Below are positions 15,064-59,967 of a stretch of 64,000 nucleotides of DNA, one piece after another (within the stretch, counting starts at the first letter, position 1; every line of letters begins with the position of its first letter). The stretch comes from an uncultured Gammaproteobacteria bacterium (lineage in GTDB: Bacteria; Pseudomonadota; Gammaproteobacteria; Eutrophobiales; Eutrophobiaceae): positions 124,001 through 188,000 of the forward strand of contig OY282354.1 of NCBI GenBank assembly GCA_958295485.1, read 5' to 3'. Position numbers and translations under genes: made by a program. Below the pieces are notes generated by a model. It worked only from the letters and a program-made list of their open reading frames with translations. It was not told the DNA's origin and did not search any database.

Positions 15064-15165
15064 ATGTTGTTTTTGTGTTATATAACATTTAATATGTTGT
15101 TTTGATATTAATTAACAACTAATATGTTGTTTTGATATTAATTAACAACTAATATGTTGTATCTG
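15064..15165. promoter_or_regulatory. hipBA operator/promoter repeats
   Basis: The AT-rich leader of hipB holds four copies of TATGTTGT. Two of them lie in perfect 30-base direct repeats containing GATATTAATTAACAAC, which offers the inverted half ACAAC. HipB antitoxins autoregulate through multiple operators, so these are the probable binding sites. The function is inferred from position. Confidence 0.55.
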
Positions 15166-38659: not shown

Positions 38660-38801
38660 TTGACTCTCCTCCCGCAAGGTAGTCTTGTTCTTTGTGCATG
38701 GCAGCGCTTCCGGAATGGCGCCTCATTTGTTCCGAGACGCCTGATTGACGATGACCTTCCTTAATCCCGGCGTAATCGCCCGGACGATAATCTCTACGTC
38801 T

Positions 38802-40033: not shown

Positions 40034-40099
40034 AAGTTATTAAAACACAATGTGTCTCTAACAGGCCAGACTCTCAGGCTCTTTTCGAAGACATTTCCC

Positions 40100-40519
40100 A
40101 AGCTGTATCCGGCAGAGCGGCAGAGGTTTACGTTATCGTCCTCACTGATCTGAATCTATCCGGTCCAGGGCGCCAAGCGCATGTGCATTGTGCGACCTGA
40201 CCCCATTCCACACAAGCTGTATCCGGCAGAGCGGCAGAGGTTTACGTTACCGTCCTCACTGATCTGAATCTATCCGGTCCAGGGCGCCAAGCGCATGTGC
40301 ATTGTGCGACCTGACCCCATTCCATGTCCGGAGGTTTACGTTATCGTCCTCACTGATCTGAATCTATCCGGTCCAGGGCGCCAAGCGCATGTGCATTGTG
40401 CGACCTGACCCCATTCCCTCACCACACACTGTGCATTGTGCGACCTGACCCCATTCCATGTGTCTTGCGACCTGACCCCATTCCATGTGTCTTGCGACCT
40501 GACCCCATTCCATGTGTCA
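40100..40519. repeat. Nested repeat array around GACCTGACCCCATTCC
   Basis: A 114-base unit beginning AAGCTGTATCCGG is present at 40100-40213 and 40214-40327 and again, lacking its 5' part, from 40331. Each unit ends in GACCTGACCCCATTCC. That core then repeats three times with a 27-base period (40439-40465, 40466-40492, 40493-40519), giving six copies of the core. The last unit contains the stop codon of the radical SAM gene. The region 40034-40099 before it has only promoter-like sequence. The core resembles ends seen beside IS200/REP-associated transposases. Confidence 0.75.
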
Positions 40520-43359: not shown

Positions 43360-45102
43360 TCACGCCGCAACGGGGTCTCTCTGCCCCTGAACGAGGAACG
43401 CCGCCATGGCGCAGGCCAGGCCGATAAGGAAATTGTAGGCCCCCATGGCGAGTAAATGGTGGAACGGCAGGCCGTACAGGCCCATCACGATGACCCAGCC
43501 GACGACCAGGTCCCTGCCCAGGGACTTCGGCGCAGTCCAGTACAGCCGCAGCAAAAAGAACAGGGACAGCAAGTACAGCGCCAATGGAATAATGCCCGCC
43601 TCGCCAACCAGCATCAGGTACACGTTGTGGACTCCAGTCGGTTTCCCCTGGTTTCCGAGAGGGGCGCCCTCCATAGAGTGGAGCTGATACAAGCCGTGAC
43701 CCATGATGGGCGCTTCCAGGGCCTTGTCGAAGCCCATCTTCCACAAGAGCGTTCGTCTCGATCGGGTTCTCCCAAGGCTGTTGTTGGAGTCGTCTTTGCC
43801 CCTGAAAGCCACCACGGTCTTCCCCGGTTCCTTCAGCAGATGGACCAGCGCGTTGGCATCCGCCGCGGTTCCTGTGGCTGCTGCCATAATCGGGCCTATG
43901 GCCTGCGTCTGAACCCGGCGCCTCATGCCGTTCTTCTCGTAGGACACCCAGGCGCGCAAGAACTTGCCCGCGTCGTCCTTCGCCGGGGCGTAGTTGGGTG
44001 AGAGCGCGCCTTCGATGTCGGTCCAAGTGGCGTCGTCGGGCGTATCGGCATCGCCGGGCCGGGCGTCGGCCCGCTGCCATCGCCAAGGATCGACCGGGTT
44101 GTCGTCAGCCCGGTGGGACTTGTCCTCAAACAGGAAAACGGTGATCGTGTCTCCCACCCGCTTCTCGTCGAACGCGTCAACAACCAAGGCCTTCCCGGTA
44201 TATACCACCGGCGTATCCGGAACGAGCCAAACCAGGACGCCGGCCAGGCACAGAACAGTCAGGCCGGTATGCAAGAGGTCTTGTCCCAGGCGGCGGCCGT
44301 TCAGCAGCAGGAACAGAATCAGCATCACGCCCAGGACAATCGCCGCGGTATAGGAAAACGATGCGAGTCCCGCGGCGCATCCCAGGACCAGGGCCAGATG
44401 CCCAAGGGGGCGTTGCCGGCCGTTGGCTTGAAATACCAACGCCAGCGCGACCGTCATGCAGGCGATAAAGCCCGCATCGTTGGCGTTGCTGAAAGCGCCG
44501 GTCAGGCGATGGGGCAGCCGGTACTCCGGCAGTACGCCAATAGCGCGCAGCCACGGCGAGGCCAGGACGACGACGCAGCTTGCCGCCAGAATCACGAGGG
44601 TCCACTTCAACAACCGCTCGGCCCCGGTTCTCTCCAACACCGACCGACCACCGACCGCGGCCGCCACGAGTACGCCGAATTGGAGGACTCGATACTTCAA
44701 GCTCCCAGCCATTTCGGGTTGCGAGATTGCCTCGACGCCCAGCGCGGCCGCGCCAATCGCCAGATAGGATGCCACCGCCGCAAACAACAACAGGCCGGGC
44801 GTTCCGCCAAGCGCCCCCCGGAGAGAAACGAGAGGGCCGGACTTTCGCCAGGCAACCAGACGCCAAACGCCAACCAGGCCCAACAAGAGGATACAACAGA
44901 CTATGGTAGCCCGTGCAATGACTACCTCGACCTGTGGCATTCCCCCAAGATGCGCGTACCTCAGGTTGGTCAGGGCGATGACCGCCAATGTCCAGAACGC
45001 GACTGCGACCAGCGTGGTCCGGAGCGACTCGGTTCGGCGGGCGATGCCGGGAACCGATGCGAACTCGAGTCTCCTCCAGGGTAACGGAATCAGCTGCAAC
45101 AT
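43360..45102 (-). CDS. O-antigen ligase/polymerase-like protein, mosaic paralogue
   Basis: 580-residue Wzy/WaaL-type membrane protein. Residues 1-20 match the 41642 paralogue. Residues about 20-170 match the leucine-rich-repeat paralogue at 57007 (for example EAISQPEMAGSLKYRVLQFG), and residues about 170-580 match the 41642 paralogue again. The periplasmic loop carries the same Ig-like module (about 307-400), and the conserved motif GVHNVYLMLVGEAG has H492. It is a natural chimera. It sits directly after a glycosyltransferase gene, with 11 bases between them. Confidence 0.83.
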   Translation of the reverse strand: MLQLIPLPWRRLEFASVPGIARRTESLRTTLVAVAFWTLAVIALTNLRYAHLGGMPQVEVVIARATIVCCILLLGLVGVWRLVAWRKSGPLVSLRGALGGTPGLLLFAAVASYLAIGAAALGVEAISQPEMAGSLKYRVLQFGVLVAAAVGGRSVLERTGAERLLKWTLVILAASCVVVLASPWLRAIGVLPEYRLPHRLTGAFSNANDAGFIACMTVALALVFQANGRQRPLGHLALVLGCAAGLASFSYTAAIVLGVMLILFLLLNGRRLGQDLLHTGLTVLCLAGVLVWLVPDTPVVYTGKALVVDAFDEKRVGDTITVFLFEDKSHRADDNPVDPWRWQRADARPGDADTPDDATWTDIEGALSPNYAPAKDDAGKFLRAWVSYEKNGMRRRVQTQAIGPIMAAATGTAADANALVHLLKEPGKTVVAFRGKDDSNNSLGRTRSRRTLLWKMGFDKALEAPIMGHGLYQLHSMEGAPLGNQGKPTGVHNVYLMLVGEAGIIPLALYLLSLFFLLRLYWTAPKSLGRDLVVGWVIVMGLYGLPFHHLLAMGAYNFLIGLACAMAAFLVQGQRDPVAA

Positions 45103-45113
45103 ACGTTTATCTT

Positions 45114-46238
45114 TCAGTCATGGCCGTTTGGCCCGCCGCGCGGGGCCTGTTTCCGGCACAGGCTGCGCAAGTCGGCGGCCACGCGGTCGTACCAGTTGGC
45201 GCTCCGAAAGTAGTCCCCGCGCCGTCTTGCTCCCTCGCAGAGCCGCCGGTACAACCCAGGCTCGTCCAGCAATCGCTTGATCGCGGCCTCGACCGCGACC
45301 GCAGAACGGGGTTCCACCAGCAGGCCGCTCTCTTCGTGCTCGACCAGCTCGGCAACGCCGCCCCACTTGGCGGCGACGACGGGCAGGCCGCACTGGAAGG
45401 CTTCGAGGATGGCGCCGGGGTAGCCCTCGCTCCGGTAGTAGCTGGGATACACCAGCAGGTCATGCTCACCGAGAACCCGGGGCATTTCCGCCGGGTCCAG
45501 GACGCCGCCGTAGGTCGCCCTGGGATGATCCTCGAACAGGGAGAAATCCGTGTCGGACATGCCGGGGCCGAAAACGTTCAGGTGACAATTTTCCGGCAGG
45601 TGGCGGCACGCCTCGAGGGCTTCGGCCAGCCCCTTGTCCATGTGCAAACGAGCAACAAAAACCAGCTTTTCCACCCTGTCGCGCCCGGTCCGGGCGGGGG
45701 CCTCCATGCTTCTTGTATTCGGGAGCCACTTGAAGTTGTCCCGGTTCTCGAAGCTATGGCGCAGGCGCTGCGTCTGCACGTACACCAGCGAAGAGCGCAT
45801 ATAGGTCTGGTCGGCCAGCCATCGCGCGAACGCGCCGTAGCCCAGGTAATCCACCATCAGGTCGCCCCCGCTGATGCGTAGCGCCAGGGGCCGGCGCGCG
45901 ATCTTGCAGACGACCCACAGGAACGATGCCAAGCTCAGCGCCGAATAAGACGCGATACTGAGGAGCGCGACGTCGGCGCGCCACAGCTTCCTCGCGACTC
46001 CCCGGACTACTCTCAGAAACCTCGCCAGGCGATGGGCCTTGATTTTCCAGGCGGGCAGGTTGGTCACGCTCCCCGACGTGTCGATGATGTCCACCTCGAA
46101 GCCATGCGCACCCAATTCCCGCGCCTGCTCGTCGGCTATCACCTTGTTGCCCCCGACTACGTTGGTATCGGACGCCCCGGTCTTCTGTATCGGCGCGATG
46201 AGCAGGATGCGGGGCGCTCGGCTCTCTTTCCCGGTCAA
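45114..46238 (-). CDS. GT4-family glycosyltransferase
   Basis: 374-residue glycosyltransferase with the GT-B fold. The N-terminal acceptor domain starts PRILLIAPIQKTGASDTNVVG. The C-terminal Glycos_transf_1 domain has VFVARLHMDKGL, VFGPG and the retaining signature EGYPGAILEAFQCGLPVV (about 285-302). A TTG start is used with GAGGAG upstream. It is almost identical to the gene at 48152, the two flanking one asparagine synthetase-like gene. It would add one sugar to a lipid-linked glycan at the cytoplasmic face. Confidence 0.87.
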   Translation of the reverse strand: MTGKESRAPRILLIAPIQKTGASDTNVVGGNKVIADEQARELGAHGFEVDIIDTSGSVTNLPAWKIKAHRLARFLRVVRGVARKLWRADVALLSIASYSALSLASFLWVVCKIARRPLALRISGGDLMVDYLGYGAFARWLADQTYMRSSLVYVQTQRLRHSFENRDNFKWLPNTRSMEAPARTGRDRVEKLVFVARLHMDKGLAEALEACRHLPENCHLNVFGPGMSDTDFSLFEDHPRATYGGVLDPAEMPRVLGEHDLLVYPSYYRSEGYPGAILEAFQCGLPVVAAKWGGVAELVEHEESGLLVEPRSAVAVEAAIKRLLDEPGLYRRLCEGARRRGDYFRSANWYDRVAADLRSLCRKQAPRGGPNGHD

Positions 46239-46259: not shown

Positions 46260-48137
46260 TCAGACGCTCAGACGGTATTCCTTGAACCACAACGCCAAGT
46301 TGAGCAGTTTATACAGCAACGTTCCGTTGTCTCTGCGACGGTCTGTGTGTTCCTGGAAACAGCGGGTGACAGTCTCGTTGTCAAACAGTCCGATGCGCTG
46401 GGTCGCATGATCGAACAAGACCGATTTCATGTAATCGGCCAGTGACGTCCTCAGCCAGTGGCTGATCGGGACGCTAAACCCTGTCTTGGGCCGGTTCAAT
46501 ATGGAGTCCGGCACGATGCCCTGCAACGCCTGGCGCAGAATGTACTTTTTCTCCTTCCCCCTGACCTTGTAGTTCGACGGCAGTCCCATAGCATAGGCAG
46601 TCAAGCGAGTATCCACCATCGGCACGCGAACCTCGACGCTGTGGGACATCGCCGGCTTATCCACTTTCTCGAAAAAAACGTCAGGCAGGATGATGCTGGA
46701 GTCGGTGTAGAGCATCCTCTGTGCCGCGTCGAGTCGTTCCAGGCGCCGATATAATTCCTTATACCTGCGAAAAGGATCCCCGGCCTTCAGGAATGAACGA
46801 CACTCGACGGTGAACAACTCGTCCGGTGGCCGGTGTAAAGATTCGGTAGACATTATGCCAGCCATAATCATTTCCGGGTCGGGCGCGCCGAACGCGGCAA
46901 GCCTCATCAGCGGCCATATCTCAGCTGTCGATTGCGTTGTAAGCGAGTGAAGCCGGGCGGCGGCGCGACCCATCAGCCGCCACCGCAACGGCTGCGAAAG
47001 CCGAACGTAGCGGTTGTATCCCGCGAAAATTTCATCGCCGCCATCGCCCTGCAGGATGACCTTGATGTCACCGGCCATCTGCTCGCACAAGAGGTATAGC
47101 GGAATATGGGCCGGATCGCCAAAAGGCTCGTCGTGACAACGTATCAATCGCTCGATTACCTTGGCGACGTCGTTCCCTGAGACATGCAGCTCATGGTGCT
47201 CGGTTCCAAAATGTTCGGCTACCAGTCGAGCCGCCGGCAATTCGTTGACGCCCCGGTCAAAGTCAAAGCCGGCGGAAAACGTCTTGAGCCTGTTTCCATA
47301 ATGCTTACTGGCAAAGGCCGTAATCGCGGACGAGTCGATGCCTCCACTCAAAAACACACCTACAGGCACGTCGCTGACCAAGTGCCTCTTTACGGCGTCG
47401 TCCAGCATGGAACTGACCGTGCGCGTCGCCGTCGGCAAGTCGTCATGGATGTTCTTCACATCCAGAATCGACGCGTACTGCGCGGACTTCATGCCGTTTG
47501 AATCGATCGTCAGCGCGTAACCGGGAAGCAACTTGGTGATGCCATCGAACATCGTGTTGGCGCCCAACGCCGTACAATAGTACATATACTCGTGCAAGCC
47601 CTGCCAGTCGATTTGCGCATTCACCTCGCCGGAAGCCAGGATGGCCTTGATTTCCGACCCGAATATCAGGTCTCCGGAAGGCGAGTGGCAATAGTACAGG
47701 GGCTTGATCCCGAATCGGTCCCGCGCCAAGTGAAGCCGTTGCTTCAAGTTGTCCCATACGGCCATGGCGAACATCCCCTCAAACCTGGGGAAGCAGGCCT
47801 CGCCCCACTCCATGTACGCATGCAGCGCCACCTCGGTATCCGAATGTCCACGAAAACGATGTCCTTTGCCCGCCAGGGTAGTTCGTATTTCGCGGAAGTT
47901 ATATATCTCTCCGTTGTATATAATCACAACGCCGCCGTCGTCGGACTGCATGGGCTGACGTCCTCGCGGGGAAAGATCGATGATGCTCAACCGGGTATGC
48001 GCGAACCCTATCGGCCCACCTGCGTACACGCCGCTGTCGTCCGGCCCCCGGTGGTGGAGGGACTCTACCATGCGTCGCAGCGCGACAAAGTCCACGGCGC
48101 CACCGTCCCTGCGATATATGCCACTGATTCCACACAT
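46260..48137 (-). CDS. Asparagine synthetase-type amidotransferase (surface glycan)
   Basis: 625-residue glutamine-dependent amidotransferase of the AsnB family. C2 (MCGISGIYRR) is the glutaminase nucleophile. The synthetase domain has FLSGGIDSSAI (PPi loop, about 258-268) and the later GDGGDEIFAGYNRY. In polysaccharide loci such proteins commonly amidate uronic acids instead of making free asparagine; this is inferred from context. A good GGAGGGAG site precedes the ATG. The upstream glycosyltransferase, in its present poly-G frame, ends 14 bases before this start, so translation may be coupled. Confidence 0.86.
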   Translation of the reverse strand: MCGISGIYRRDGGAVDFVALRRMVESLHHRGPDDSGVYAGGPIGFAHTRLSIIDLSPRGRQPMQSDDGGVVIIYNGEIYNFREIRTTLAGKGHRFRGHSDTEVALHAYMEWGEACFPRFEGMFAMAVWDNLKQRLHLARDRFGIKPLYYCHSPSGDLIFGSEIKAILASGEVNAQIDWQGLHEYMYYCTALGANTMFDGITKLLPGYALTIDSNGMKSAQYASILDVKNIHDDLPTATRTVSSMLDDAVKRHLVSDVPVGVFLSGGIDSSAITAFASKHYGNRLKTFSAGFDFDRGVNELPAARLVAEHFGTEHHELHVSGNDVAKVIERLIRCHDEPFGDPAHIPLYLLCEQMAGDIKVILQGDGGDEIFAGYNRYVRLSQPLRWRLMGRAAARLHSLTTQSTAEIWPLMRLAAFGAPDPEMIMAGIMSTESLHRPPDELFTVECRSFLKAGDPFRRYKELYRRLERLDAAQRMLYTDSSIILPDVFFEKVDKPAMSHSVEVRVPMVDTRLTAYAMGLPSNYKVRGKEKKYILRQALQGIVPDSILNRPKTGFSVPISHWLRTSLADYMKSVLFDHATQRIGLFDNETVTRCFQEHTDRRRDNGTLLYKLLNLALWFKEYRLSV

Positions 48138-48151: not shown

Positions 48152-49414
48152 TCAGTAAAGTTCAGAAGGAAATTGAGGTCGATGATGGTTCGGGCATAGC
48201 ATTACTCGCCGCCCCCCATACTCCGCAGCATCCGGCTTCCGCTGACGCAAGGCATCTCGCAAAAATAAAGATTCATCGCGGTGTTTTCTTATTTGGCCGG
48301 GGGGGGGGGGGGGGGGGGTGGCCTGTTTCCGGCACAGGCTGCGCAAGTCGGCGGCCACGCGGTCGTACCAGTTGGCGCTCCGAAAGTAGTCCCCGCGCCG
48401 TCTTGCTCCCTCGCAGAGCCGCCGGTACAACCCAGGCTCGTCCAGCAATCGTTTGATCGCGGCCTCGACCGCGGCCGCAGAACGGGGTTCCACCAGCAGG
48501 CCGCTCTCTTCGTGCTCGACCAGCTCGGCAACGCCGCCCCACTTGGCGGCGACGACGGGCAGGCCGCACTGGAAGGCTTCGAGGATGGCGCCGGGGTAGC
48601 CCTCGCTCCGGTAGTAGCTGGGATACACCAGCAGGTCGTGCTCACCGAGAACCCGGGGCATTTCCGCCGGGTCCAGGACGCCGCCGTAGGTCGCCCTGGG
48701 ATGATCCTCGAACAGGGAGAAATCCGTGTCGGACATGCCGGGGCCGAAAACGTTCAGGTGACAATTTTCCGGCAGGTGGCGGCACGCCTCGAGGGCTTCG
48801 GCCAGCCCCTTGTCCATGTGCAAACGAGCAACGAAAACCAGCTTTTCCACCCTGTCGCGCCCGGCCCGGGCGGGGGCCTCCATGCTTCTTGTATTCGGGA
48901 GCCACTTGAAGTTGTCCCGGTTCTCGAAACTATGGCGCAGGTACTGCGTCTCCACGTACACCAGCGAAGAGCGCATATAGGTCTGGTCGGCCAGCCAACG
49001 CGCGAACGCGCCGTAGCCCAGGTAATCCACCATCAGGTCGCCCCCGCTGATGCGTAGCGCCAGGGGCCGGCGCGCGATCTTGCAGACGACCCACAGGAAC
49101 GATGCCAGGCTCAGCGCCGAATAAGATGCGATCAAGAGTAACGCGACGTCGGCGCGCCACAGCTTCCTCGCGACTCCCCAGATTACTCTCAGGAACCTCG
49201 CCAGACGATGGGCCTTGATTTTCCAGGCGGGCAGGTTGGTCACGCTCCCCGACGCGTCGATGGTGTCCACCTCGAAACCACGCGTCTCCAATTCCCGCGC
49301 CTGCTCGTCGGCTATCACCTTGTTGCCCCCGACTACGTTGGTATCGGACGCCCCGGTCTTCTGTATCGGCGCGATGAGCAGGATGCGGGGCGCTCGGCTC
49401 TCTTTCCCGGTCAA
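48152..49414 (-). CDS. GT4-family glycosyltransferase with poly-C switch near 3' end
   Basis: 420 residues in the present frame. It is a near-copy of the 45114 glycosyltransferase through about residue 366 (RSLCRKQA), including EGYPGAILEAFQCG. There the paralogue ends RGGPNGHD, but here a run of 20 C (minus strand) encodes prolines and an unrelated tail of about 45 residues follows (GQIRKHRDESLFLRD...). A change of tract length by one or two bases would end the protein within about 10 residues (PAK or RPNKKTPR). The catalytic domains are unaffected. A TTG start with GGAGGAA upstream is used. Confidence 0.85.
   Translation of the reverse strand: MTGKESRAPRILLIAPIQKTGASDTNVVGGNKVIADEQARELETRGFEVDTIDASGSVTNLPAWKIKAHRLARFLRVIWGVARKLWRADVALLLIASYSALSLASFLWVVCKIARRPLALRISGGDLMVDYLGYGAFARWLADQTYMRSSLVYVETQYLRHSFENRDNFKWLPNTRSMEAPARAGRDRVEKLVFVARLHMDKGLAEALEACRHLPENCHLNVFGPGMSDTDFSLFEDHPRATYGGVLDPAEMPRVLGEHDLLVYPSYYRSEGYPGAILEAFQCGLPVVAAKWGGVAELVEHEESGLLVEPRSAAAVEAAIKRLLDEPGLYRRLCEGARRRGDYFRSANWYDRVAADLRSLCRKQATPPPPPPGQIRKHRDESLFLRDALRQRKPDAAEYGGRRVMLCPNHHRPQFPSELY
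48299..48318. repeat. Homopolymeric tract of 20 G
   Basis: Twenty uninterrupted G on the plus strand (48299-48318) inside the 3' end of the glycosyltransferase gene. It is exactly at the point where similarity to the paralogue at 45114 ends. Such tracts mutate by slipped-strand mispairing. The exact length may also be affected by sequencing error. Confidence 0.85.
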
Positions 49415-49774: not shown

Positions 49775-51769
49775 TCATGGCGCGGCGTCCTTGGTCCAGG
49801 GTTCCCGTCGACTGCGATCCAGCCACGCCTGAAACATCAGGATGTTCCAGAGGCGCTGTTCGCATTGTTCATGCGCATTCAGAAATTCATGCCACTTCCG
49901 GCGTACAGGCCGCGGGTCGAAAAACCCCTCCGCTTGCAGCCGTCTGGCGTCCAATAATGCCTCCGCCCAATCCCTGAGCGGACCACGCAGCCACGCGGCG
50001 AGCGGTATGGAGAAGCCCGCCTTCGGTCGTTCGACGAGTTGCATCGGCACGTACTTGTAGAGCGCCTGTCGCAAAACCCACTTGCTCCGGGCGTTGCGAA
50101 TCCGGAAAGACAGCGGCAAACGCCAGACGAACTCCATGACGCAATGGTCAAGGAATGGCGCGCGGGTCTCGAGACTCACGCCCATTGCCGCCCTGTCCAC
50201 CTTGACGAGAATGTCATCGGGAAGGTAACTCAGACTGTCAACCGCCATCAACCGGGCCGCGAATTCGAGCGCGTCGGGCCAGCTTGCAGGTTCGGTCAGG
50301 GCGGTTGCAGGTTCGGACGCGCCGCGCACTACCGCGCACGGATTCGGCCAGTGAGAGAGATGGCGCCAATGGAGTTCCTCCTGCGTCCGGCAATTGGCTA
50401 ACAGCGCCAGCGTGCGCGCTTTGGCTTGTATCCGGCGTCGCCCGCGGTTCATTGGCAGCCGGCTAAGGACACGATCCGCTTCAGGCGCTTGAAAGGCCGT
50501 GCTTGCGCCGGCGACGAGTCGGCGCAACGGCGTCGGCACACTGGACAGCAGGCGCCAGCGCCGGGGCGTCGAGACGTAGTGCTCATAACCGCCGAACAGC
50601 TCGTCGCCGCCGTCTCCGGACAGGGCGACGGTGACGTGCCGGCGGGCCAGCCCGGCAACCAGGAAGGTGGGGATCTGCGAGGAATCGGCAAAAGGCTCGT
50701 CGAAGAGGTCAGGCAAGCGGGGAATGACGTCGAGCGCATCCCGCGCCGATACGTACAGCTCGGTGTGTTCGGTCCGGAGGTGGCTGGCCACAGCCTTGGC
50801 GTACCCCGCTTCGTTGTATTCGGATTCGTCGAATCCGATGGTGAAAGTTCGCACCGGTTGTCCGGATTGCGCCTGCATCAATGCGACAACGGTCGAGGAG
50901 TCGATCCCGCCGGAGAGGAAGGCGCCGAGTGGGACGTCCGCGACCATCTGTCCGCGCACTGCCCGGAGCAACAGGTCGTGCAGGGCATCCACTGCGTCTT
51001 CGGGGGAACCCTCGAACGGCTGCGCCCGACCTGCCGCTACCACGTCCCGCAACGACCAGTAACGCCGCGGTTCCGGCAGTTCGCCGGCGCGCCGCTCCCG
51101 TGAAGCGCCGGCAGTCACCCTGAGGTACGTGCCCGGCGGCAACTTTTGCACTCCCTTGTAGATCGACCAAGGGGATGAAATGTAGCCGTGGCGCAGGAGC
51201 AGGGTGAGCGCGTCCCGGTCGACGTCTCCCGCGAATGCAGGATGCGCCGCGAGCGCCTTCAGCTCGGACCCGAACAGGAACACGCCGTTCTGCCAGCCGT
51301 AATAGAGCGGTTTTTCCCCCATGCGGTCGCGCGCCAAACAGAGTGTCCGGTCTTCCCGGTCCCAGAACGCGAAGGCGAACATGCCGGTGGCCGCCTGCAA
51401 CGCCTCTTCCAACCCCCAATACTCGATAGCGGCCAGCAGCGTTTCTGTATCGGAATGCCCCCGCCAGGACAAAGCGTCCGGATGCCGGGCCTCGATCTGC
51501 CGCCTGAGGTCAAGGTGGTTGTAGATCTCGCCATTGAAGACGATGACGCTTCGCCCGGAGGCGGACTGCATCGGCTGGCGACCGGCCGGCGACGGATCGA
51601 TGACGGCCAGACGCTGGTAGGCCAGTGCGACCCCGGCCTCACGGTCAGCCCAGACCCCGGCATCGTCGGGACCACGATGCACAACAGCGGCTGCCATCTC
51701 GCGTGCGATCGACGACGCTTCTGCCGGAGTGAAACGCTCGCCTCCAAGAAACCCGGCTATGCCGCACAT
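49775..51769 (-). CDS. Asparagine synthetase-type amidotransferase, second copy
   Basis: 664-residue AsnB-family protein, diverged from the copy at 46260. C2 is the glutaminase nucleophile (MCGIAGFLGG). FLSGGIDSSTV (about 268-278) is the PPi loop and GDGGDELFGGYEHY is also conserved. It probably amidates a different sugar acid in the same glycan. Its ATG lies inside a short upstream frame (51757-51855), suggesting coupled translation. The flippase gene follows after a spacer. Confidence 0.86.
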   Translation of the reverse strand: MCGIAGFLGGERFTPAEASSIAREMAAAVVHRGPDDAGVWADREAGVALAYQRLAVIDPSPAGRQPMQSASGRSVIVFNGEIYNHLDLRRQIEARHPDALSWRGHSDTETLLAAIEYWGLEEALQAATGMFAFAFWDREDRTLCLARDRMGEKPLYYGWQNGVFLFGSELKALAAHPAFAGDVDRDALTLLLRHGYISSPWSIYKGVQKLPPGTYLRVTAGASRERRAGELPEPRRYWSLRDVVAAGRAQPFEGSPEDAVDALHDLLLRAVRGQMVADVPLGAFLSGGIDSSTVVALMQAQSGQPVRTFTIGFDESEYNEAGYAKAVASHLRTEHTELYVSARDALDVIPRLPDLFDEPFADSSQIPTFLVAGLARRHVTVALSGDGGDELFGGYEHYVSTPRRWRLLSSVPTPLRRLVAGASTAFQAPEADRVLSRLPMNRGRRRIQAKARTLALLANCRTQEELHWRHLSHWPNPCAVVRGASEPATALTEPASWPDALEFAARLMAVDSLSYLPDDILVKVDRAAMGVSLETRAPFLDHCVMEFVWRLPLSFRIRNARSKWVLRQALYKYVPMQLVERPKAGFSIPLAAWLRGPLRDWAEALLDARRLQAEGFFDPRPVRRKWHEFLNAHEQCEQRLWNILMFQAWLDRSRREPWTKDAAP

Positions 51770-51904: not shown

Positions 51905-53236
51905 TTACCCGTTGCCGAACGCGGCGCGGAATGCCCGCCAGAAGGAAACCGCGTCGCTGGGTCGTGGCAGCCAGATTGAGAACCAGCGCATTCGAGTCGC
52001 CCTTGCGAACGCCGCCGCGAGAAAGACGAGTCGGCAAATCATTCCCAGGGTCAGTCCCCAGGCTGCGGCTGAGACGCCAACCACCGGATAGAGCGCGGGA
52101 ATCGCAATCAGGTTAACAGCCAGTCCCAGGGAGACGGCCCAGGAACAGATGCCGGGGCGGTCGATACTCTTGAAATAGGTTCCGAGTATGCCGACGCCGG
52201 CATAGGCGAGCACTCCCGGGGCGATGATCCACAGAAGCGGGACCGCCGGCAGGAAGGCCTCAGAGAAGAGGATCCGAACCAGCGGCGTGCTGATCGCGAG
52301 CACGGCGAGAATCGCGGCCACGGTGCCGCAGGACACGACACGCAGGCAGAGCGTCGTCAATTCCGGGCGACCACTACCCGCGATACGGGGCAGCAGCGCG
52401 TTGCCGACCGCATCGGAGATCATTCGCAGTCGGAACATGAGCGCGCTCGCGGTTGCGAACAGGCCGATTTCCGCCTGGCTCGCGAACAGCCCGAGAATGA
52501 GAACGCCGGCGCTCATTTCCAGTGCGCTGCCTATGCCCGCAGGATGGAATCGCAGACCGTAGCCGACGATTCGCGCGGAGACGGCGCGGAACGGATTAGT
52601 CAGAACCAGCCCGTGACGGCGGCGCAGGTACCACAGGCACAAGACTACCATGCAACCATGCGCGCCGATGACCGCCGCGACCGCGCCGGCCACCCCGAGC
52701 CGCCCGACCCAGACGAGGACCAGCAGAACGAGGATGTTCAAGGCGGCATGCGCCAGGGCGAACACCGCGAGATGCCCGAAGCGTCGGAGTCCGGCGAGTT
52801 GATACTCCATGGCCCCTGAGAACGCCATGACAGGCATCAGGACAAGCGCCAGGTAAAACGAGCGCGTCTCTGCCTTGTGAAAGAAGGCGATATCGCTGTG
52901 GATGAACGGGACCGCCAGCGCGATCGCCAAGGCCCCGCCGACGAGGCAGATCGCCAGGGCGGCGCCGACGCCTTCCGAAATAGTCGCCTGCTTCGTCATG
53001 ATGAAATATTGCGCGCCCTGTTGCGCCCCGGGCGTGAAGAGCACGCCGAGAATACTTGCGAATACGACGCACAGGGCAAAGCTGCCGCGGCCTTCCGGCA
53101 ACAGCGTGTAGGCCAGGAGACTCTGGATCGCGAGGCCGAAGATGACCATGCCAACCTGGGTTGCGAACACGATGACTGTATCCTGTCCGCCGGTCGTGCG
53201 CGGACCGAGTGGCCTGTTTGACTCTTCCGGTGTCAT
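51905..53236 (-). CDS. Wzx-type polysaccharide flippase
   Basis: 443-residue membrane protein of the MATE/Wzx polysaccharide transport group with about 12-14 hydrophobic helices. Typical parts are the N-terminal QVGMVIFGLAIQSLLAYTLLP, LPRIAGSGR and the late SVAAWGLTLGMICRLVFLA-like helices. It should flip lipid-linked repeat units to the periplasm, where the ligase/polymerase-like proteins act. The ATG at 53236 (MTPEESNRPLG) is chosen because the longer frame before it overlaps the upstream glycosyltransferase with low-complexity arginine-rich sequence. It is separated from that gene by 13 bases. Confidence 0.83.
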   Translation of the reverse strand: MTPEESNRPLGPRTTGGQDTVIVFATQVGMVIFGLAIQSLLAYTLLPEGRGSFALCVVFASILGVLFTPGAQQGAQYFIMTKQATISEGVGAALAICLVGGALAIALAVPFIHSDIAFFHKAETRSFYLALVLMPVMAFSGAMEYQLAGLRRFGHLAVFALAHAALNILVLLVLVWVGRLGVAGAVAAVIGAHGCMVVLCLWYLRRRHGLVLTNPFRAVSARIVGYGLRFHPAGIGSALEMSAGVLILGLFASQAEIGLFATASALMFRLRMISDAVGNALLPRIAGSGRPELTTLCLRVVSCGTVAAILAVLAISTPLVRILFSEAFLPAVPLLWIIAPGVLAYAGVGILGTYFKSIDRPGICSWAVSLGLAVNLIAIPALYPVVGVSAAAWGLTLGMICRLVFLAAAFARATRMRWFSIWLPRPSDAVSFWRAFRAAFGNG

Positions 53237-53249
53237 GGCTTCGACAGCT

Positions 53250-54500
53250 CTAACGTCGTACCAGCTTCTCGAACAGCGCGACATAGGCGGCGGCGGCCTT
53301 GTCGGGTGAGAAGTCGGCGGCGCGTGCCCGTAGCGCGGCCGGCGGCGGCCTCTCGCCCCGTAGCGTCGCGACCAGGGCCCGCGCCAGCGCCGGCGCATCG
53401 CCCACCGGCGGCAGGTCGCCCCAACCCCCGAGGATCTCCCGTGGACCGTAGGGCGCGTCGGCGCTGACCACCGGTGTGCCGCAGGCCAGCGCCTCGAGGA
53501 TCACCGTCGGCAGACCCTCCCAGCGCGAGGAGAGCGCGAGCAGCCCCGCGCGGCGCATGTAGCGGTACGGGTTCTCGTCAAAGTCTACGAAGCCGAGGTC
53601 TCCCTCCACGCCAAGACCCCGCGCCAGGGACTTGAGCCTTGTCCGGTAGGGCGCGGAAAGCCGGCCAAGCATGACCAACCGCGCGTCCACCTCGCGCCTC
53701 GCCAGTCCGAACGCCTCCACCAGGGTAGGGTGATCCTTCTGCGGCGCCTCGCGCCCGACGCTCAGGACCACCGGCGGCGCGCCAGCCGCGAACCAGGAGT
53801 GCGTGACTTCCTCCTGCGCCAGCCGCCGTATGCTGTCGGCGGGAATGGGGTTGTAGATGGCGCTAACGCGTTCGGCGTCCACCCCTAACGATCGCCGCAC
53901 GACCTCGGCCACGCCCCTGGACACCGCCACCACCGCGTCGGCCAGCGGATAGAGCGTCCGGATCGCTTCCAGCCATTCCGGCGCATGGTCCGCGGTGACG
54001 TTGACGCGCACCGTAACCACCACCGGCACAGCCCGATCCGTCAACTCTGCGGCGCAGACCGCGACGGCGGAGGCGCCCGGCAGCGCCGCCACCAGCACAT
54101 GGGGGCGTACTTCGCGAATGTACTGCGCCAGAAAATGGGCGTAGGGATAGATGGAGCGCATGCTGCTGTCGCGTAGCACGGGTATCCTGGGGTACTTCCG
54201 ACTGAGAACCAGCCAACTCCGCGCGACCCCGATGGGGTTGACGCTCATCACTTCCACTTGGACTCCCGCGCGCTGCGCCGCCCGCAGGAGCTCCCTGTCG
54301 GCGCCGGGAATCCGCGCCCGATAGACGCGCATTCCGCCGGGGATCGCGGCCCGGTAGTCTCCCGCGAACCGGGGGATCACCAGGTCCGCCCGGTGCCCGC
54401 GCTCGATGAGCGACTGCGCCAGGCGGAGAATATTGCGCTCTGCCCCGCCGCCGTTCAGGCCGGTCAGCAGGAAGCCGGCATGAAATTTGTCCGATCTCAT
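53250..54500 (-). CDS. GT4-family glycosyltransferase, tandem copy 3
   Basis: 416-residue GT-B enzyme. The N-terminal GFLLTGLNGGGAERNILRLA is typical of GT4. The C-terminal domain has VLSVGREAPQKDHP, LGRLSAPY and the nucleotide-sugar signature RWEGLPTVILEALACGTPVV (about 322-341). It is nearly identical over most of its length to the next gene upstream, with differences concentrated in the first 60 residues. The start ATGA overlaps the stop of that gene. Sugar specificity is unknown. Confidence 0.87.
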   Translation of the reverse strand: MRSDKFHAGFLLTGLNGGGAERNILRLAQSLIERGHRADLVIPRFAGDYRAAIPGGMRVYRARIPGADRELLRAAQRAGVQVEVMSVNPIGVARSWLVLSRKYPRIPVLRDSSMRSIYPYAHFLAQYIREVRPHVLVAALPGASAVAVCAAELTDRAVPVVVTVRVNVTADHAPEWLEAIRTLYPLADAVVAVSRGVAEVVRRSLGVDAERVSAIYNPIPADSIRRLAQEEVTHSWFAAGAPPVVLSVGREAPQKDHPTLVEAFGLARREVDARLVMLGRLSAPYRTRLKSLARGLGVEGDLGFVDFDENPYRYMRRAGLLALSSRWEGLPTVILEALACGTPVVSADAPYGPREILGGWGDLPPVGDAPALARALVATLRGERPPPAALRARAADFSPDKAAAAYVALFEKLVRR

Positions 54501-55756
54501 TGCGCGCGCGCCCTCACCAGCTTCTTGAACAGCGCGACATAGGCGGCGGCGGCCTTCTCGGGTGAGAAGTCGGCGGCGCGCGCCCGTAGCGCGGCCGCCG
54601 TCGGCCGCGCGCCGCGTAGCGTCGCGACCAGCGCCCGCGCCAGCGCCGGCGCATCGCCCACCGGCGGCAGGTCACCCCAACCCCCGAGGATTTCCCGTGG
54701 ACCGTAGGGCGCGTCGGTACTGACCACCGGTGTGCCGCATGCCAGCGCCTCGAGGATCACCGTCGGCAGACCCTCCCAGCGCGAGGAGAGCGCGAGCAAC
54801 CCCGCGCGCCGCATGTAGCGGTACGGGTTCTCGTCGAAGTCCACAAAGCCGAGGTCTCCCTCCACGCCAAGACCCCGCGCCAGGGACTTGAGCCTTGTCC
54901 GGTAGGGCGCGGAAAGCCGGCCAAGCATGACCAACCGCGCGTCCACCTCGCGCCTCGCCAGTCCGAACGCCTCTACCAGGGTGGGGTGATCCTTCGGCGC
55001 CGCCTCGCGCCCGACGCTCAGGACCACCGGCGGCGCGCCGTCCTCAAACCAGGGATGCGTGACTTCCTCTTGCGCCAGTCGCCGTATACTGTCGGCAGGA
55101 ATGGGGTTGTAGATGGCGCTAACGCGTTCGGCGTCCACCCCCAACGATCGCCGCACGACCTCAGCCACGCCCCTGGACACCGCCACCACCGCATCGGCCA
55201 ACGGATAGAGCGTCCGGGACGCGGCCAGCCATTCCGGCGCATAATCCGCGCTGACGTTGGCATGCACCGTGACCACCACCGGCACAGCCCGATCCGTCAA
55301 CTCTGCGGCGCAGACCGCGACGGCGTCGGCGCCCGGCAGCGCCGACACCAGCACATGGGGGCGTACTTCGCGAATGTACTGCGCCAGAAAATGGGCGTAG
55401 GGATAGATGGAGCGCATGCCGCTGCCGCGTAGCACGGATATCCTGGGGTACTTCCGACTGAGAACCAGCCAACTCCGCGCGACCCCGATGGGGTTGACGC
55501 TCATCACTTCCACTTGGACTCCCGCGCGCTGCGCCGCCCGCAGGAGCTCCCTGTCGGCGCCGGGAATCCGCGCCCGATAGACACGCATTCCGCCGGGGAT
55601 CGCGGCCCGGTAGTCTCCCGCGAACCGGGGGAGCGCCAGGTCCGCCCGGTGTCCGCGCGCAATGAGCGCCGTCGCCAAGTTCAGAATGGCGCGCTCCGCG
55701 CCGCCGCCGTCCAGGCCGGTCAGCAGGAAGCCGACATGAAATTTGTCCGCCCTCAC
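54497..55756 (-). CDS. GT4-family glycosyltransferase, tandem copy 2
   Basis: 419-residue GT-B protein from a GTG start, overlapping both neighbours by 4 bases. The acceptor domain (residues about 40-190) is almost the same as in copy 3 (for example GGMRVYRARIPGADRELL), and the donor domain is the shared one with RWEGLPTVILEALACG. The near identity implies recent tandem duplication. Whether the copies add the same or different sugars cannot be told. Confidence 0.87.
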   Translation of the reverse strand: MRADKFHVGFLLTGLDGGGAERAILNLATALIARGHRADLALPRFAGDYRAAIPGGMRVYRARIPGADRELLRAAQRAGVQVEVMSVNPIGVARSWLVLSRKYPRISVLRGSGMRSIYPYAHFLAQYIREVRPHVLVSALPGADAVAVCAAELTDRAVPVVVTVHANVSADYAPEWLAASRTLYPLADAVVAVSRGVAEVVRRSLGVDAERVSAIYNPIPADSIRRLAQEEVTHPWFEDGAPPVVLSVGREAAPKDHPTLVEAFGLARREVDARLVMLGRLSAPYRTRLKSLARGLGVEGDLGFVDFDENPYRYMRRAGLLALSSRWEGLPTVILEALACGTPVVSTDAPYGPREILGGWGDLPPVGDAPALARALVATLRGARPTAAALRARAADFSPEKAAAAYVALFKKLVRARAQ

Positions 55757-57003
55757 CGCGCGCGTGCCCTCACCAGCTTCTCGAACAGCGCGACATAGGC
55801 ATCGGCGGCCTTGTCGGGTGAGAAGTCGGCAGCGCGCGCCCGTAGCGCCGCCGCCGTCGGCCGCGCGCCGCGCAGCGTCGCGACCAGCGCCCGCGCCAGC
55901 GCCGGCGCATCGCCCACCGGCGGCAGGTCACCCCAACCCCCGAGGATTTCCCGTGGACCGTAGGGCGCGTCGGTACTGACCACCGGTGTGCCGCAAGCCA
56001 GCGCTTCGAGGACCACCGTCGGCAGACCCTCCCAGCGTGAGGAGAGCGCGAGCAGCCCCGCGCGGCGCATGTAGCGGTACGGGTTCTCGTCGAAGTCCAC
56101 AAAGCCGAGGTCTCCCTCCACGCCAAGACCCCGCGCCAGGGACTTGAGCCTCGTCCGGTAGGGCGCGGAAAGCCGGCCAAGCATGACCAACCGCGCGTCC
56201 ACCTCGCGCCTTGCCAGTCCGAACGCCTCTACCAGGGTGGGGTAGTCCTTCTGCGCCGCCTCGCGCCCGACGCTCAGGACCACCGGCGGCGCGCCGTCCG
56301 CAAACCAGGGGTGCGTGACTTCCTCCTGCGCCAGTCGCCGTATGCTGTCGGCGGGAATGGGGTTGTAGATGGCGCTAACGCGCCCGGCGTCCACCCCTAA
56401 CGATCGCCGCACGGACTCGCCTACGCCCCTGGACACCGCTACCACCGCATCGGCCAGCGGATAGAGCGTCCGGGACGCTTCCAGCCAAGCTTCGGTGTAT
56501 TCCCTCTCGACGTTGTTGCGTACCGTGACCACCACCGGAACAGCTTGGTCCGTCAACTTTGCGGCGCAGACCGCGGCGGCGTCGGCGCCCGGCAGCGCCG
56601 ATACCAGCACATGGGGACGCGCACTGCGGAGGTAATGGTTCAGAATGTGGACGGAAGCATAAAGAGAGCGCTTGCGCCGGACCCGTACGCCAAGGCGCTT
56701 GCGGCCAAGAACCAGCCCGATCCAGGCGACCGCGAACGGGTTTACGCCAAGCGCCGTTACTCTTGCGCCCGACTGTTGGACTTCCCGCAAGAACGTCCTG
56801 TCGGTATGAGGAAGCCGTCCCCGGTACAATCGCATTCCACGGGGAATTACGGTCCGATAGTCTCCCGCAAACCGGGGGAGCGCCAGGTCCGCCCGGTGTC
56901 CGCGCTCGATGAGCGACTGCGCCAAGCAGAGAATACTGCGCTCCGCCCCACCCCCGCCCAGGCTGGGCAGTACGAACCCGATATGGAGTCTGCCGTCGGT
57001 CAC
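55753..57003 (-). CDS. GT4-family glycosyltransferase, tandem copy 1
   Basis: 416-residue GT-B protein from a GTG start. Its donor half (about 190-416) is almost identical to copies 2 and 3, but the acceptor half differs strongly between about residues 50 and 165 (GRLPHTDRTFLREVQ and KRLGVRVRRKRSLYASVHIL). This suggests exchange of the acceptor-recognition module on a constant donor module. It lies 3 bases after the leucine-rich-repeat ligase gene. Confidence 0.87.
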   Translation of the reverse strand: MTDGRLHIGFVLPSLGGGGAERSILCLAQSLIERGHRADLALPRFAGDYRTVIPRGMRLYRGRLPHTDRTFLREVQQSGARVTALGVNPFAVAWIGLVLGRKRLGVRVRRKRSLYASVHILNHYLRSARPHVLVSALPGADAAAVCAAKLTDQAVPVVVTVRNNVEREYTEAWLEASRTLYPLADAVVAVSRGVGESVRRSLGVDAGRVSAIYNPIPADSIRRLAQEEVTHPWFADGAPPVVLSVGREAAQKDYPTLVEAFGLARREVDARLVMLGRLSAPYRTRLKSLARGLGVEGDLGFVDFDENPYRYMRRAGLLALSSRWEGLPTVVLEALACGTPVVSTDAPYGPREILGGWGDLPPVGDAPALARALVATLRGARPTAAALRARAADFSPDKAADAYVALFEKLVRARAR

Positions 57004-57006: not shown

Positions 57007-59967
57007 TCACGTCTCCACGACGTGGCAGTCACCGTCGATGGGCGGCGCTCCTGTCGCGACGCTCAACCCGGCGAGAAACATGAACGCGCTGATCACGAGC
57101 AGGTGCTGGAAGCTCATGGAGTACAGGGCGATGACAATGACCCAGGCTATGGTCGCATCCCGGGCAAGCGACTTGGGCGCGCCCCACTGCGCGCGCAGCA
57201 GCAGGACAATGGCAGACACGAATAGCAGCAGGGGGACGATGCCCGCCTCGCCCAGCAAGGCCAGGTACAAGTTGTGAGCGCCCAGCGGCCTGCCGTCAAT
57301 TCCGATGGGAGCCCCGTCCATGTGCGCCAGCGCCCCAAGGCCATGACCGAAGACGAGCGACTCCAGGGCCTTCTCGAAACCCAGTCTCCAAAGCAGCAGT
57401 CTATCTATCGCCAAGGCATCGCAGATGAGGTCGTCATCTATATCGTGGCTGTGCAGGTGGAGGTGGCGCAACCCCCACGGCAGGCAGCCGTGAAAATCGT
57501 TGCCGGCGACGGCAAGGGAGAGATGCTTGATTCCGGTCAATGCAGACGCGAAGGAACCGGTGAGATGGTTGTCGGCCAGCCATAGTTGCCCGAGATTCGG
57601 CAGGTTGGCGATCTCGGGCGGGATGGCGCCGGTCAGAGCGTTGCCGGCAAGCATGAGCGTTCTCAAGCCGGTCAGTTTTCCCAGTTCCGGCGGAATGCCC
57701 CCTGTCAAGGTGTTGTGACTCAGGTTCAGATACTCAAGTCGCGCCAGGTTGCCCAGCTCCGGCGGAATGCGACCGTTCAATCTCAGTCCCGCCAAATTCA
57801 GCCCGGTGACGCGCCCCTCCGGGCCGGCCATCGTCACGCCCTGCCACAAACCGACCGGGACCGCCGCATGCCAGTTGAGCGATGCGTTGCCGGCCAGCGT
57901 CTCCTTCACCGCCAGCAACGCCTTGCAGTCGTCGGACAGCGCCGGACTCATTGGCGGCAACGGCGTAGAGACGCGTGTATAAGCCAGATCGTGGTCGGCG
58001 GCAGCGGTGAGTTCGGGAGGAATGGAGTCGAAATCGTTGCCCGAGAGACGCAGAAGGGACAGGCCGAGCTCCCCGAGAGCGACCGGGACAGCGCCGGTCA
58101 AGCGGTTGTGTTTCAGCCATAGCTCCTTGAGATTCTTGAACTTCGCCAGTTCCGGCGGAATGCCCCCTGTCAAGGCATTGTGGCTCAGATTCAGATACTC
58201 GAGTCGGGCCAGGTTGCCCAACTCCGGCGGAATGCGACCGGTGAGCTGATTTCGTTGAAGGGACAGCGAAACGAGGCGATCCAGGCGACCAAGCTCCGCG
58301 GGGATGCGACCGTTCAATCCCAGTCCCGCCAAATTCAGCCCGGTGACGCGCCCCTCCGAGCCGGCCACCGTCACGCCTTGCCACAAACCGACCGGGACCG
58401 CCGCATGCCAGTTGAGCGATGCGTTGCCGGCCAGCGTCTCCTTCACCGCCAGCAGTGCCTTGCAGTCGTCGGACAGCGCCGGACTCATTGGCGGCAACGG
58501 CGTAGAGACGCACATATAAGCCAGATCGTGGTCGGCGACAGCGGTGAGTTCGGGAGGAATGGAGTCGAAATCGTTGCCCGAGAGACGCAGAAGGGACAGG
58601 CCGAGCTCCCCGAGAGCGACCGGGACAGCGCCGGTCAAGCGGTTGTATTTCAGCCATAGCTCCTTGAGATTCTTGAGCTTCGCCAGTTCCGGCGGAATGC
58701 CCCCTGTCAAGGCATTGTGGCTCAGATTCAGATACTCGAGTCGCGCCAGGTTGCCCAACTCCGGCGGAATGCGACCGGTGAGCTGATTTCGTTGAAGGGA
58801 CAGCGAAACGAGGCGATCCAGGCGACCAAGCTCCGCGGGGATGCGACCGTTCAATCCCAGTCCCGCCAAATTCAGCCCGGTGACGCGCCCCTCCGAGCCG
58901 GCTACCGTCACGCCTTGCCAGTAGTTCACGGGCACGACGCTACTCCAATTCAAAACAATGTCCCCGGCCAGGATATCCCTTTTTGCCAGCAGGACGGCGC
59001 AGTCCGCGCCAGGATTGTCGGTCGGCGAAGGATCGCAGAACAGGTTCCCCTCATACGTAGCGGCGGGAATGAACCGCAACTCCGACCACTTGGAAAAACT
59101 TCCGGAGAAACCCCCAACACCGATGAATCCTGCAATTCCGATCAATCCTGTGGCCGCTAAAGCCAGGACGAATGGCCTCGGTTTGCTGCGGACGCTGATC
59201 AACAGAAACACGACCGCGACGGCGCCGAGTACGACGAGCGCCGTTCGGGACGCTGTCGCCAGACTTGCGGCGACGCCGGCGGCCAGGCCCAGCCAGCCGA
59301 GCGTGCGCGGCCCGCCGTTGGTCAACAACGCCACGGCCAACGCCACTGTCATGCAGGCGGCCAAGCCGGCATCGTTGGGATTGACGAAGGCGCCGGTCAG
59401 GCGAAACGGAATTCTGTAGGGCGGCAGGATATCGAGATCACGCAGGACCGGCGAAGCTAAAATGATGACGCAACTCAAAATCAGCACGACAAGCACGCCC
59501 TGCAACAACCGGTCGGCCCCGATTCCCTCCAGCGCCGCCCGGCCGCCGACCGCGGCCGCCACGAGTACGCCGAATTGGAGGACTCGATACTTCAAGCTCC
59601 CAGCCGTTTCGGGTTGCGAGATTGCCTCGACGCCCAGCACGGCCGCGCCAATCGCCAGATAGGATGCCACCGCCGCGAACAACAACAGGCCGGGCGTTCC
59701 GCCAAGCGCCCCCCGGATGGGGGCGAGTGAACCGGACTTTCGGCAGGCGATCAGGCGGCGGGCGCCAACCAGGCCCAACAAGAGGACACAGCAGACAATG
59801 GTCACCCGTGCAATGACCACCTCGACCGACGGCAGCCCCCAAAGATGCAGATACCTCAGGTTGGTCAGGGTGATGACCGCCAATGTCCAGAACGCGATTG
59901 CGATCAACGTGGCCTGGAACGACTCGGCCCGGCGCAGCAGCGAGGCCGGATGTTGGAACCGGATCAC
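57007..59967 (-). CDS. O-antigen ligase/polymerase-like protein with inserted leucine-rich repeats
   Basis: 986-residue membrane protein from a GTG start. Residues about 1-290 form the N-terminal helices of a Wzy/WaaL protein, similar to the 43360 gene (EAISQPETAGSLKYRVLQFG). Residues about 311-850 are plant-type leucine-rich repeats (LxxLxxLxLxxNxLTGxIPxEL) in three modules with a period of 179 residues (537 bases). Each module opens with an LRRNT-like cap (C...LL..K..LAG...LNW...WQGVT). Residues about 855-970 resume the ligase fold with FGHGLGAL, GAHNLYLALLGEAG (H898) and the last helices. The repeats replace the Ig-like module of the two paralogues in the same periplasmic loop. It is intact and in operon with three glycosyltransferases. 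Confidence 0.88.
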   Translation of the reverse strand: MIRFQHPASLLRRAESFQATLIAIAFWTLAVITLTNLRYLHLWGLPSVEVVIARVTIVCCVLLLGLVGARRLIACRKSGSLAPIRGALGGTPGLLLFAAVASYLAIGAAVLGVEAISQPETAGSLKYRVLQFGVLVAAAVGGRAALEGIGADRLLQGVLVVLILSCVIILASPVLRDLDILPPYRIPFRLTGAFVNPNDAGLAACMTVALAVALLTNGGPRTLGWLGLAAGVAASLATASRTALVVLGAVAVVFLLISVRSKPRPFVLALAATGLIGIAGFIGVGGFSGSFSKWSELRFIPAATYEGNLFCDPSPTDNPGADCAVLLAKRDILAGDIVLNWSSVVPVNYWQGVTVAGSEGRVTGLNLAGLGLNGRIPAELGRLDRLVSLSLQRNQLTGRIPPELGNLARLEYLNLSHNALTGGIPPELAKLKNLKELWLKYNRLTGAVPVALGELGLSLLRLSGNDFDSIPPELTAVADHDLAYMCVSTPLPPMSPALSDDCKALLAVKETLAGNASLNWHAAVPVGLWQGVTVAGSEGRVTGLNLAGLGLNGRIPAELGRLDRLVSLSLQRNQLTGRIPPELGNLARLEYLNLSHNALTGGIPPELAKFKNLKELWLKHNRLTGAVPVALGELGLSLLRLSGNDFDSIPPELTAAADHDLAYTRVSTPLPPMSPALSDDCKALLAVKETLAGNASLNWHAAVPVGLWQGVTMAGPEGRVTGLNLAGLRLNGRIPPELGNLARLEYLNLSHNTLTGGIPPELGKLTGLRTLMLAGNALTGAIPPEIANLPNLGQLWLADNHLTGSFASALTGIKHLSLAVAGNDFHGCLPWGLRHLHLHSHDIDDDLICDALAIDRLLLWRLGFEKALESLVFGHGLGALAHMDGAPIGIDGRPLGAHNLYLALLGEAGIVPLLLFVSAIVLLLRAQWGAPKSLARDATIAWVIVIALYSMSFQHLLVISAFMFLAGLSVATGAPPIDGDCHVVET

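Follow-up and report, generated by a model that had tools for sequence, protein, structure and literature searches.

Gene cluster around LRR-Wzy

The window, which is the whole stretch of 64,000 nucleotides that was analyzed, contains a minus-strand gene cluster that includes LRR-Wzy, a membrane enzyme of the Wzy_C superfamily carrying a block of leucine-rich repeats (LRRs). The parts of LRR-Wzy and the genes of the cluster are as follows.

57007-59967, minus strand: LRR-Wzy, a membrane enzyme of 986 aa in the Wzy_C superfamily, with the LRR block nested in it (single ORF, Pfam LRR and Wzy_C, 18 full-length homologues of the same architecture)
59107-59967, minus strand: N-terminal part of LRR-Wzy, with nine predicted transmembrane (TM) helices (approximately residues 9-287), the SRT motif at 240-242, and Wzy_C positions 3-66
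57418-59034, minus strand: LRR block, approximately residues 312-850, with three capped plant-type modules whose caps start at about 333, 512, and 691 (best PDB matches to plant receptor-kinase ectodomains)
57007-57402, minus strand: C-terminal part of LRR-Wzy, residues 856-986, with the end of the catalytic loop (R856, GHG, H898-N899), three TM helices, and Wzy_C positions 82-149
55753-57003, minus strand: GT4 glycosyltransferase a, starting 3 nt past the LRR-Wzy stop
54497-55756, minus strand: GT4 glycosyltransferase b, tandem copy
53250-54500, minus strand: GT4 glycosyltransferase c, tandem copy
51905-53251, minus strand: putative Wzx-like multi-TM flippase, 82-89% identical in Nitrospirota, Tectimicrobiota, Binatota, and Pseudomonadota
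49775-51769, minus strand: AsnB-like amidotransferase 1, 87-88% identical in Nitrospirota and Binatota
48152-49414, minus strand: GT4 glycosyltransferase d
46260-48137, minus strand: AsnB-like amidotransferase 2
45114-46238, minus strand: GT4 glycosyltransferase e, near-copy of d
43360-45102, minus strand: Ig-Wzy B, a paralogue whose corresponding loop holds an Ig-like insert; it is a mosaic, with the N-half of the LRR type and the C-half of the Ig type
41642-43282, minus strand: Ig-Wzy C, the second paralogue with an Ig-like insert
40517-41596, minus strand: radical SAM/SPASM protein; identity is 80-90% to the proteins of Binatota, Chloroflexota, and other Pseudomonadota and drops to 71% in Tectimicrobiota
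38930-40033, minus strand: polysaccharide-deacetylase-like protein (weak Pfam match), also in the clusters of Nitrospirota, Chloroflexota, and another Gammaproteobacterium
37805-38677, minus strand: predicted methyltransferase, read from sequence, a cluster member in Chloroflexota (L072)

LRR-Wzy and the next GT4 gene lie exactly 3 nt apart at seven loci, namely the window and L056, L057, L062, L063, L064, and L067, which indicates that the two genes function together. The second halves of the three tandem GT4 genes (53250-57003) are 90-98% identical, and the first half of the first gene is 54-88% identical; the sequences show the pattern expected of gene conversion or partial duplication. The Wzx-like protein matched neither Pfam nor PDB. 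Neither a Wzz-like protein nor an initiating transferase was recognized among the cluster genes that were annotated, which leaves the pathway with gaps on paper. The GC content of the window is 0.57-0.70 over 42-60 kb, where the cluster lies, compared with 0.45-0.58 elsewhere. Non-coding tandem repeats at 40099-40527, at the SPASM end of the cluster, include six exact copies of TGCGACCTGACCCCATT (0.01 expected) and are possibly REP-type elements. AT-rich tandem repeats of 33 and 30 bp lie at 14661-15160 of the window, in a surrounding region of 51-54% GC.

Domain architecture of LRR-Wzy

The LRR-Wzy gene starts with GTG and forms one frame of 986 codons with no internal stops. A sequence-only reading of this DNA had described a single frame with N-terminal helices, LRRs, and the H898 motif, and this description held. 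Its three modules of 179 residues did not, as the cap-to-cap lengths are 179, 179, and 162 aa, the third module being shorter with fewer LRRs.

Across the middle of the protein, Pfam detected LRR_1 (6e-41), LRR_4 (8e-29), and LRR_8 (2e-25). When the protein was scanned alone, Wzy_C matched residues 854-917 with 2e-6 and 28.1 bits, just under the gathering cut-off of 31.7, and a six-frame search of the genome placed LRR-Wzy above the cut-off at 32.5 bits. The score is near the cut-off in each piece of the protein, and this counts against the explanation favored below. Two Wzy_C stretches of the same frame, model positions 3-66 (approximately residues 228-294) and 82-149 (854-917), flank the LRRs, so the LRR block is nested within the Wzy_C domain.

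Hydropathy and the helix pattern of the AlphaFold model, in which confidence in the core is low, gave nine helices on the N-terminal side of the LRRs and three on the C-terminal side. Segments rich in K/R are found ahead of helix 9 (SKPRP) and behind helix 10 (RAQWGAPKSLARD). From the 9+3 helices and the K/R pattern, the LRR loop is predicted to be periplasmic. Together with the nesting in Wzy_C, this agrees with the earlier placement of the LRRs inside the periplasmic loop of a Wzy/WaaL protein.

H898 is located in the motif GAHNLYLALLGEAG and is almost invariant across 29 homologues; the loop arginine R856 and the catalytic His/Asn are also conserved. In relatives, the conserved His mediates ligase activity (PMC9938171), and His338 of WaaL is a loop His that matters for function (PMC10449877). 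The PDB sequence search with the LRR-Wzy core returned no matches. LRR-Wzy is best classified as a Wzy_C-superfamily enzyme, a level of assignment at which sequence cannot separate ligase, polymerase, and protein O-glycosyltransferase.

Structure and constraint of the LRR block

Modules 1 and 2 are near-copies, with a 300-nt stretch of the 537-nt unit repeating at 91% DNA identity, and they are recent duplicates. The module number in the window rests on a single assembly and could be an assembly error. AlphaFold, run with 29 sequences, modeled the LRR modules confidently (pLDDT mostly 75-93); the membrane core reached mostly 35-75, which is too low to fix where the LRR arm sits with respect to the active site. 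The best Foldseek matches of the model were plant LRR receptor-kinase ectodomains (E 4e-24). Their TM-scores were 0.1-0.3, and such low values are expected if the LRR modules are not rigidly arranged. The plant-type LRR is backed by both profiles and fold, and the domain search and the model bore out the domains of the sequence-only reading, with confident LRR modules and a poorly resolved membrane core.

The inserts of the homologues are intact at 336-1930 aa, and dN/dS is mostly 0.4-0.7, alike in the N-core, LRR block, and C-core, and below 1 in nearly all pairs; both cores and the LRR block are therefore under constraint. The LRR block is approximately as conserved as the catalytic core. 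In seven long-type proteins, conservation was 0.958 at the scaffold LRR positions, 0.684 at the concave exposed positions, and 0.699 at the other exposed positions (Mann-Whitney p = 0.84 for concave versus other exposed). A hypervariable recognition face was thus rejected, since the positions exposed on the concave face vary no more than the others do. Within the array, the later modules are the most conserved and the first modules the least. The conservation of the LRRs at the level of the core and the absence of hypervariability on the concave face argue against a role in diversifying recognition. Judged by these comparisons, the LRR insert is kept by selection, and its pattern looks unlike that of a hypervariable recognition domain.

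An LRR donor was not found in the window's own genome, in which LRR_1 matches this ORF alone. The nearest LRR sequence in the genus is an autotransporter-like protein of a congener (G002), with 48-53% identity and a similar cap.

A putative Ig-like domain in the same slot of paralogous enzymes

Ig-Wzy B and Ig-Wzy C carry an insert of 180 aa at the place where the LRRs sit in LRR-Wzy, with the sequence PWRWQRADARPGD...TWTDIEGALSPNYTP...GKFLRAWVSYEKNG. Their Wzy_C scores, 46.9 bits for B and 45.4 for C, are clearly over the cut-off. The insert reads as an Ig-like domain, and Pfam gave a weak match to SCAB-Ig (0.08). The DNA identity between B and C, calculated per 100 bases, is 81-97% from approximately position 500 to the end, where the insert and the C-terminus are encoded, and 33-60% in the first 500, and the N-terminal half of B is 68% identical to LRR-Wzy. 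Therefore, Ig-Wzy B is a recombinant in which the loop and the C-terminal half moved as a cassette. Because the paralogues hold either LRRs or an Ig-like domain at this position and B is a recombinant of both types, the loop is a swappable slot.

The Ig-like cassette is also present on PMT-like membrane proteins of the same genome (L054 and L055; G000:C1:641806-642069 and G000:C1:3185897-3186106), suggesting that several membrane glycan enzymes may carry it. In Dehalococcoidia, the Ig-like cassette is also found in further frames of approximately 640-890 aa (e.g., G109:C1:967327-970344), where its identity reaches 67%, and this group is a possible source lineage of the cassette.

Relatives in other genomes

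One genome per species (84,980 species) was scanned using an alignment of the three paralogues as the query. Because a locus is reported only if it matches two short peptide patterns exactly, remoter LRR/Wzy_C fusions would be missed. It returned 21 loci, and all but one, an LRR match in Paraburkholderia, were true relatives. These sit in metagenome-assembled genomes of the OY2823xx/OY2824xx or CATQHB records and look as if they all came from one sequencing project. Taxa are named here after the record titles, and most of these names were checked against RpoB. The LRR type was found in nine further genomes, in records titled Nitrospirales, Vicinamibacterales, Pseudomonadales, Gammaproteobacteria, and Ca. 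Entotheonella, which span Nitrospirota, Acidobacteriota, Pseudomonadota, and Ca. Tectimicrobiota and are mostly assembled as chromosomes. Most of these orthologues belong to a single conserved cluster with GT4, Wzx-like, AsnB-like, radical SAM, and deacetylase genes. The Ig type occurs in Binatia (Binatota), Dehalococcoidia (Chloroflexota), and one Gammaproteobacterium, and also in Nitrospirales, Entotheonella, and further Pseudomonadota genomes.

Other Wzy/WaaL proteins with LRRs, whose existence the sequence-only reading had left to be looked for, are thus represented by orthologues in nine genomes. It had also allowed that the LRR and membrane parts might be separate genes or the architecture already common; the fusion is intact in all nine of these genomes, and the architecture is rare.

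The distance between the N-core and the C-core is 176-218 aa in the Ig type, 336-371 in the short LRR type, 541 in the window, and 1562-1930 in the long LRR type. Seven of the 11 long-type proteins have inserts of 1562-1593 aa, and four have larger ones. Several genomes have a long and a short LRR form within a few kilobases of each other.

The core had no match in the 52 other genomes of the window's family or in a further 368 genomes sampled from its class. Beyond these metagenome-assembled genomes, none of the public genomes, viruses, and plasmids searched yielded a member of the family. Viral or plasmid-borne spread was considered and rejected: the Ig-type family has no relative in viral contigs, and the plasmid matches are LRR-only proteins. 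Long Wzy_C-like frames (763-1065 aa) in the same family of genomes include no LRR fusion; four of them resemble RND efflux pumps, and one resembles a usual Wzy joined to a second membrane protein. The genome of L063 (G101) is rich in LRR proteins, and its open frames reach 11,836 codons. In L061/L142 (Vicinamibacterales), one extra LRR-Wzy copy is apparently broken into several frames beside intact ones, which suggests turnover of copies.

Transfer of the cluster between phyla

RpoB identity to the window is 67% in Nitrospirales, 66% in Vicinamibacterales, 67% in Entotheonella, 71% in Binatia, and 52-62% in Dehalococcoidia. Identities this low mean that the records represent different phyla, and the 16S pairs agree with RpoB (same-strand pairs only). 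Protein identity in the syntenic clusters is mostly 78-85% for GT4, 82-89% for Wzx-like, 87-88% for AsnB-like, 71-90% for SPASM, and 72-77% for Ig-Wzy. The synonymous difference (pS) of RpoB between these phyla is 0.75-0.84, with one lower value of 0.55 (L057/L059). The pS of the cluster genes against the window is mostly 0.18-0.37, reaching 0.5-0.6 in a few Dehalococcoidia GT4 genes, and that of the long LRR-Wzy N-cores across phyla is 0.14-0.25. As the pS of the cluster genes is far under that of RpoB, the cluster was transferred recently across phyla.

The window and the Nitrospirales cluster share the order LRR-Wzy, three GT4, Wzx-like, AsnB-like, GT4, and Ig-Wzy, with the AsnB-like gene of Nitrospirales on the opposite strand. 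The order in Entotheonella (Tectimicrobiota) is similar, with small changes. In the core tree, the Ig and LRR types are apart and taxa are mixed inside the LRR type, where Vicinamibacterales and Pseudomonadales proteins form a supported pair (98/88). Because the types recombine, a single tree is merely approximate. Rather than a single-protein curiosity, LRR-Wzy belongs to a cluster that is shared horizontally and in which its sister enzymes have an Ig-like domain in the slot. Taken alone, the LRR/Wzy_C architecture and the cross-phylum transfer are close to certain.

Proposed function and alternative explanations

We propose, with moderate confidence, that LRR-Wzy is an inner-membrane GT-C transferase of the Wzy_C type whose LRR-expanded periplasmic loop docks the acceptor, and that it acts in a recently spread Wzx/Wzy-like glycan cluster. 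Judging from their families, the GT4, AsnB-like, SPASM, and deacetylase-like enzymes would build and modify a lipid-linked glycan, which the Wzx-like protein would flip. LRR-Wzy and the Ig-Wzy enzymes would then transfer the glycan in the periplasm via the conserved His, if their chemistry follows their fold family. The LRR arm by the active site would dock the acceptor, which may be the growing glycan chain or a protein, and thereby provide specificity or processivity; the Ig-like domain in the same slot of the sister enzymes would serve a different acceptor. A fixed ligand fits this proposal because the LRR block is about as conserved as the catalytic core. However, the LRRs could instead be structural or bind a protein partner.

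A less probable explanation, although the strongest of the alternatives, is a protein O-oligosaccharyltransferase that places glycans onto proteins, with the LRR or Ig-like insert binding the acceptor protein. The C-terminal parts resemble NCBIfam O-glycosylation ligases (PEP_O_lig_1, 6e-5; TfpM, 4e-5 in Ig-Wzy B), but the TfpM and PEP_O_lig_1 models score far under their cut-offs (22.0 vs 188.1 and 22.8 vs 600 bits, respectively). LRR and Ig folds are usually protein binders; no family of acceptor proteins was found. Dehalococcoidia keep the Ig-type enzyme though they are generally held to be LPS-free, so at least the Ig type need not be an LPS ligase.

It is rather unlikely that the LRR array is a chain-length ruler or a periplasm-spanning scaffold, which would measure the polymer or tie the enzyme to the export machine. 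The grouping of seven long inserts within 1562-1593 aa, the adjoining long and short forms, and the lack of a recognized Wzz in the window's cluster would suit such a role. However, the window form has just three modules, and the separate capping of each module means that the array does not form a single rigid solenoid.

A receptor-like sensor of an external molecule, a role that the sequence-only reading had also suggested, is improbable. The top Foldseek matches are indeed plant receptor ectodomains, but the LRR loop is predicted to be periplasmic in a diderm, its concave face is not hypervariable, and the protein is without a signaling domain. Lastly, an assembly chimera or a decaying, functionless fusion, which the near-identity of the first two LRR modules and a cluster rich in duplicates might suggest through misassembly, can be set aside on sequence grounds given independent orthologues in nine other genomes with the same order, open frames, and dN/dS almost always below 1.

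Literature searches for O-antigen ligase with leucine-rich repeat and periplasmic loop, and for O-antigen ligase with glycosyltransferase and domain architecture, found no paper, with many subscription papers lying outside both searches. In the literature on sponge symbionts and LRRs or glycans, no title or abstract indicated the LRR-Wzy architecture. Within this scope, the architecture is undescribed, as had been supposed.

Glycan ligases and polymerases are thought to pick their acceptors by a small loop. Receptor-type binding domains in the acceptor loop, with two alternative folds sharing one slot, would make acceptor choice modular and testable. The recent movement of a large surface-glycan system between phyla also bears on shared surface chemistry in dense host-associated communities. 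The presence of Ca. Entotheonella suggests a sponge as the host of the source community; sponge genome notes gave no match to the accessions of these records. Tentatively, unrelated members of one, probably sponge-associated, community in at least six phyla may share a glycan cluster with LRR/Ig-like docking arms and thus an enzyme-selected coat. If so, the shared glycan coat could serve as a mark by which the host, or other members, recognize those of the community.

Comparison with known systems

The WaaL O-antigen ligase (PF04932) has, like LRR-Wzy, 12 TM helices, a main periplasmic loop near the C-terminal end, and a loop His with arginines, and it uses lipid-linked glycans, as is proposed for LRR-Wzy. 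In contrast to the compact loops of WaaL, the cores of LRR-Wzy are 541 aa apart (up to 1930 in relatives), and almost all of this is LRR. LPS is an unlikely acceptor of the Ig-type relatives, given their Chloroflexota carriers.

Wzy O-antigen polymerases share with LRR-Wzy the superfamily and the cluster context of Wzx-like and GT4 proteins, and they usually work with Wzz. The present system differs from them in the LRR or Ig-like insert, in having three Wzy_C enzymes per cluster, and in that a Wzz partner was not recognized. The protein O-glycosylation ligases (PglL/TfpO/TfpM and PEP_O_lig_1) have a similar C-terminal motif region, but LRR-Wzy scores far under their cut-offs, and to our knowledge none of them has an LRR insert.

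The plant receptor kinases ERL1, GASSHO1, and MIK2 have the same LRR consensus, LxxLxLxxNxLxGxIPxxLxxLxx. Unlike the plant ectodomains, the modules of LRR-Wzy are short, each is self-capped, and they lie inside a bacterial membrane enzyme. Bacterial LRR surface proteins, such as the G002 autotransporter-like protein, whose cap resembles that of LRR-Wzy, and internalins, are exported and are not enzymes.

WadA of Brucella is, like LRR-Wzy, an O-antigen ligase-type protein fused to another domain, and residues 534-612 were removed as the major part of its loop (PMC9938171). In WadA, the addition is a cytoplasmic glycosyltransferase at the N-terminus, whereas in LRR-Wzy it is a putative binding domain within the predicted periplasmic loop.
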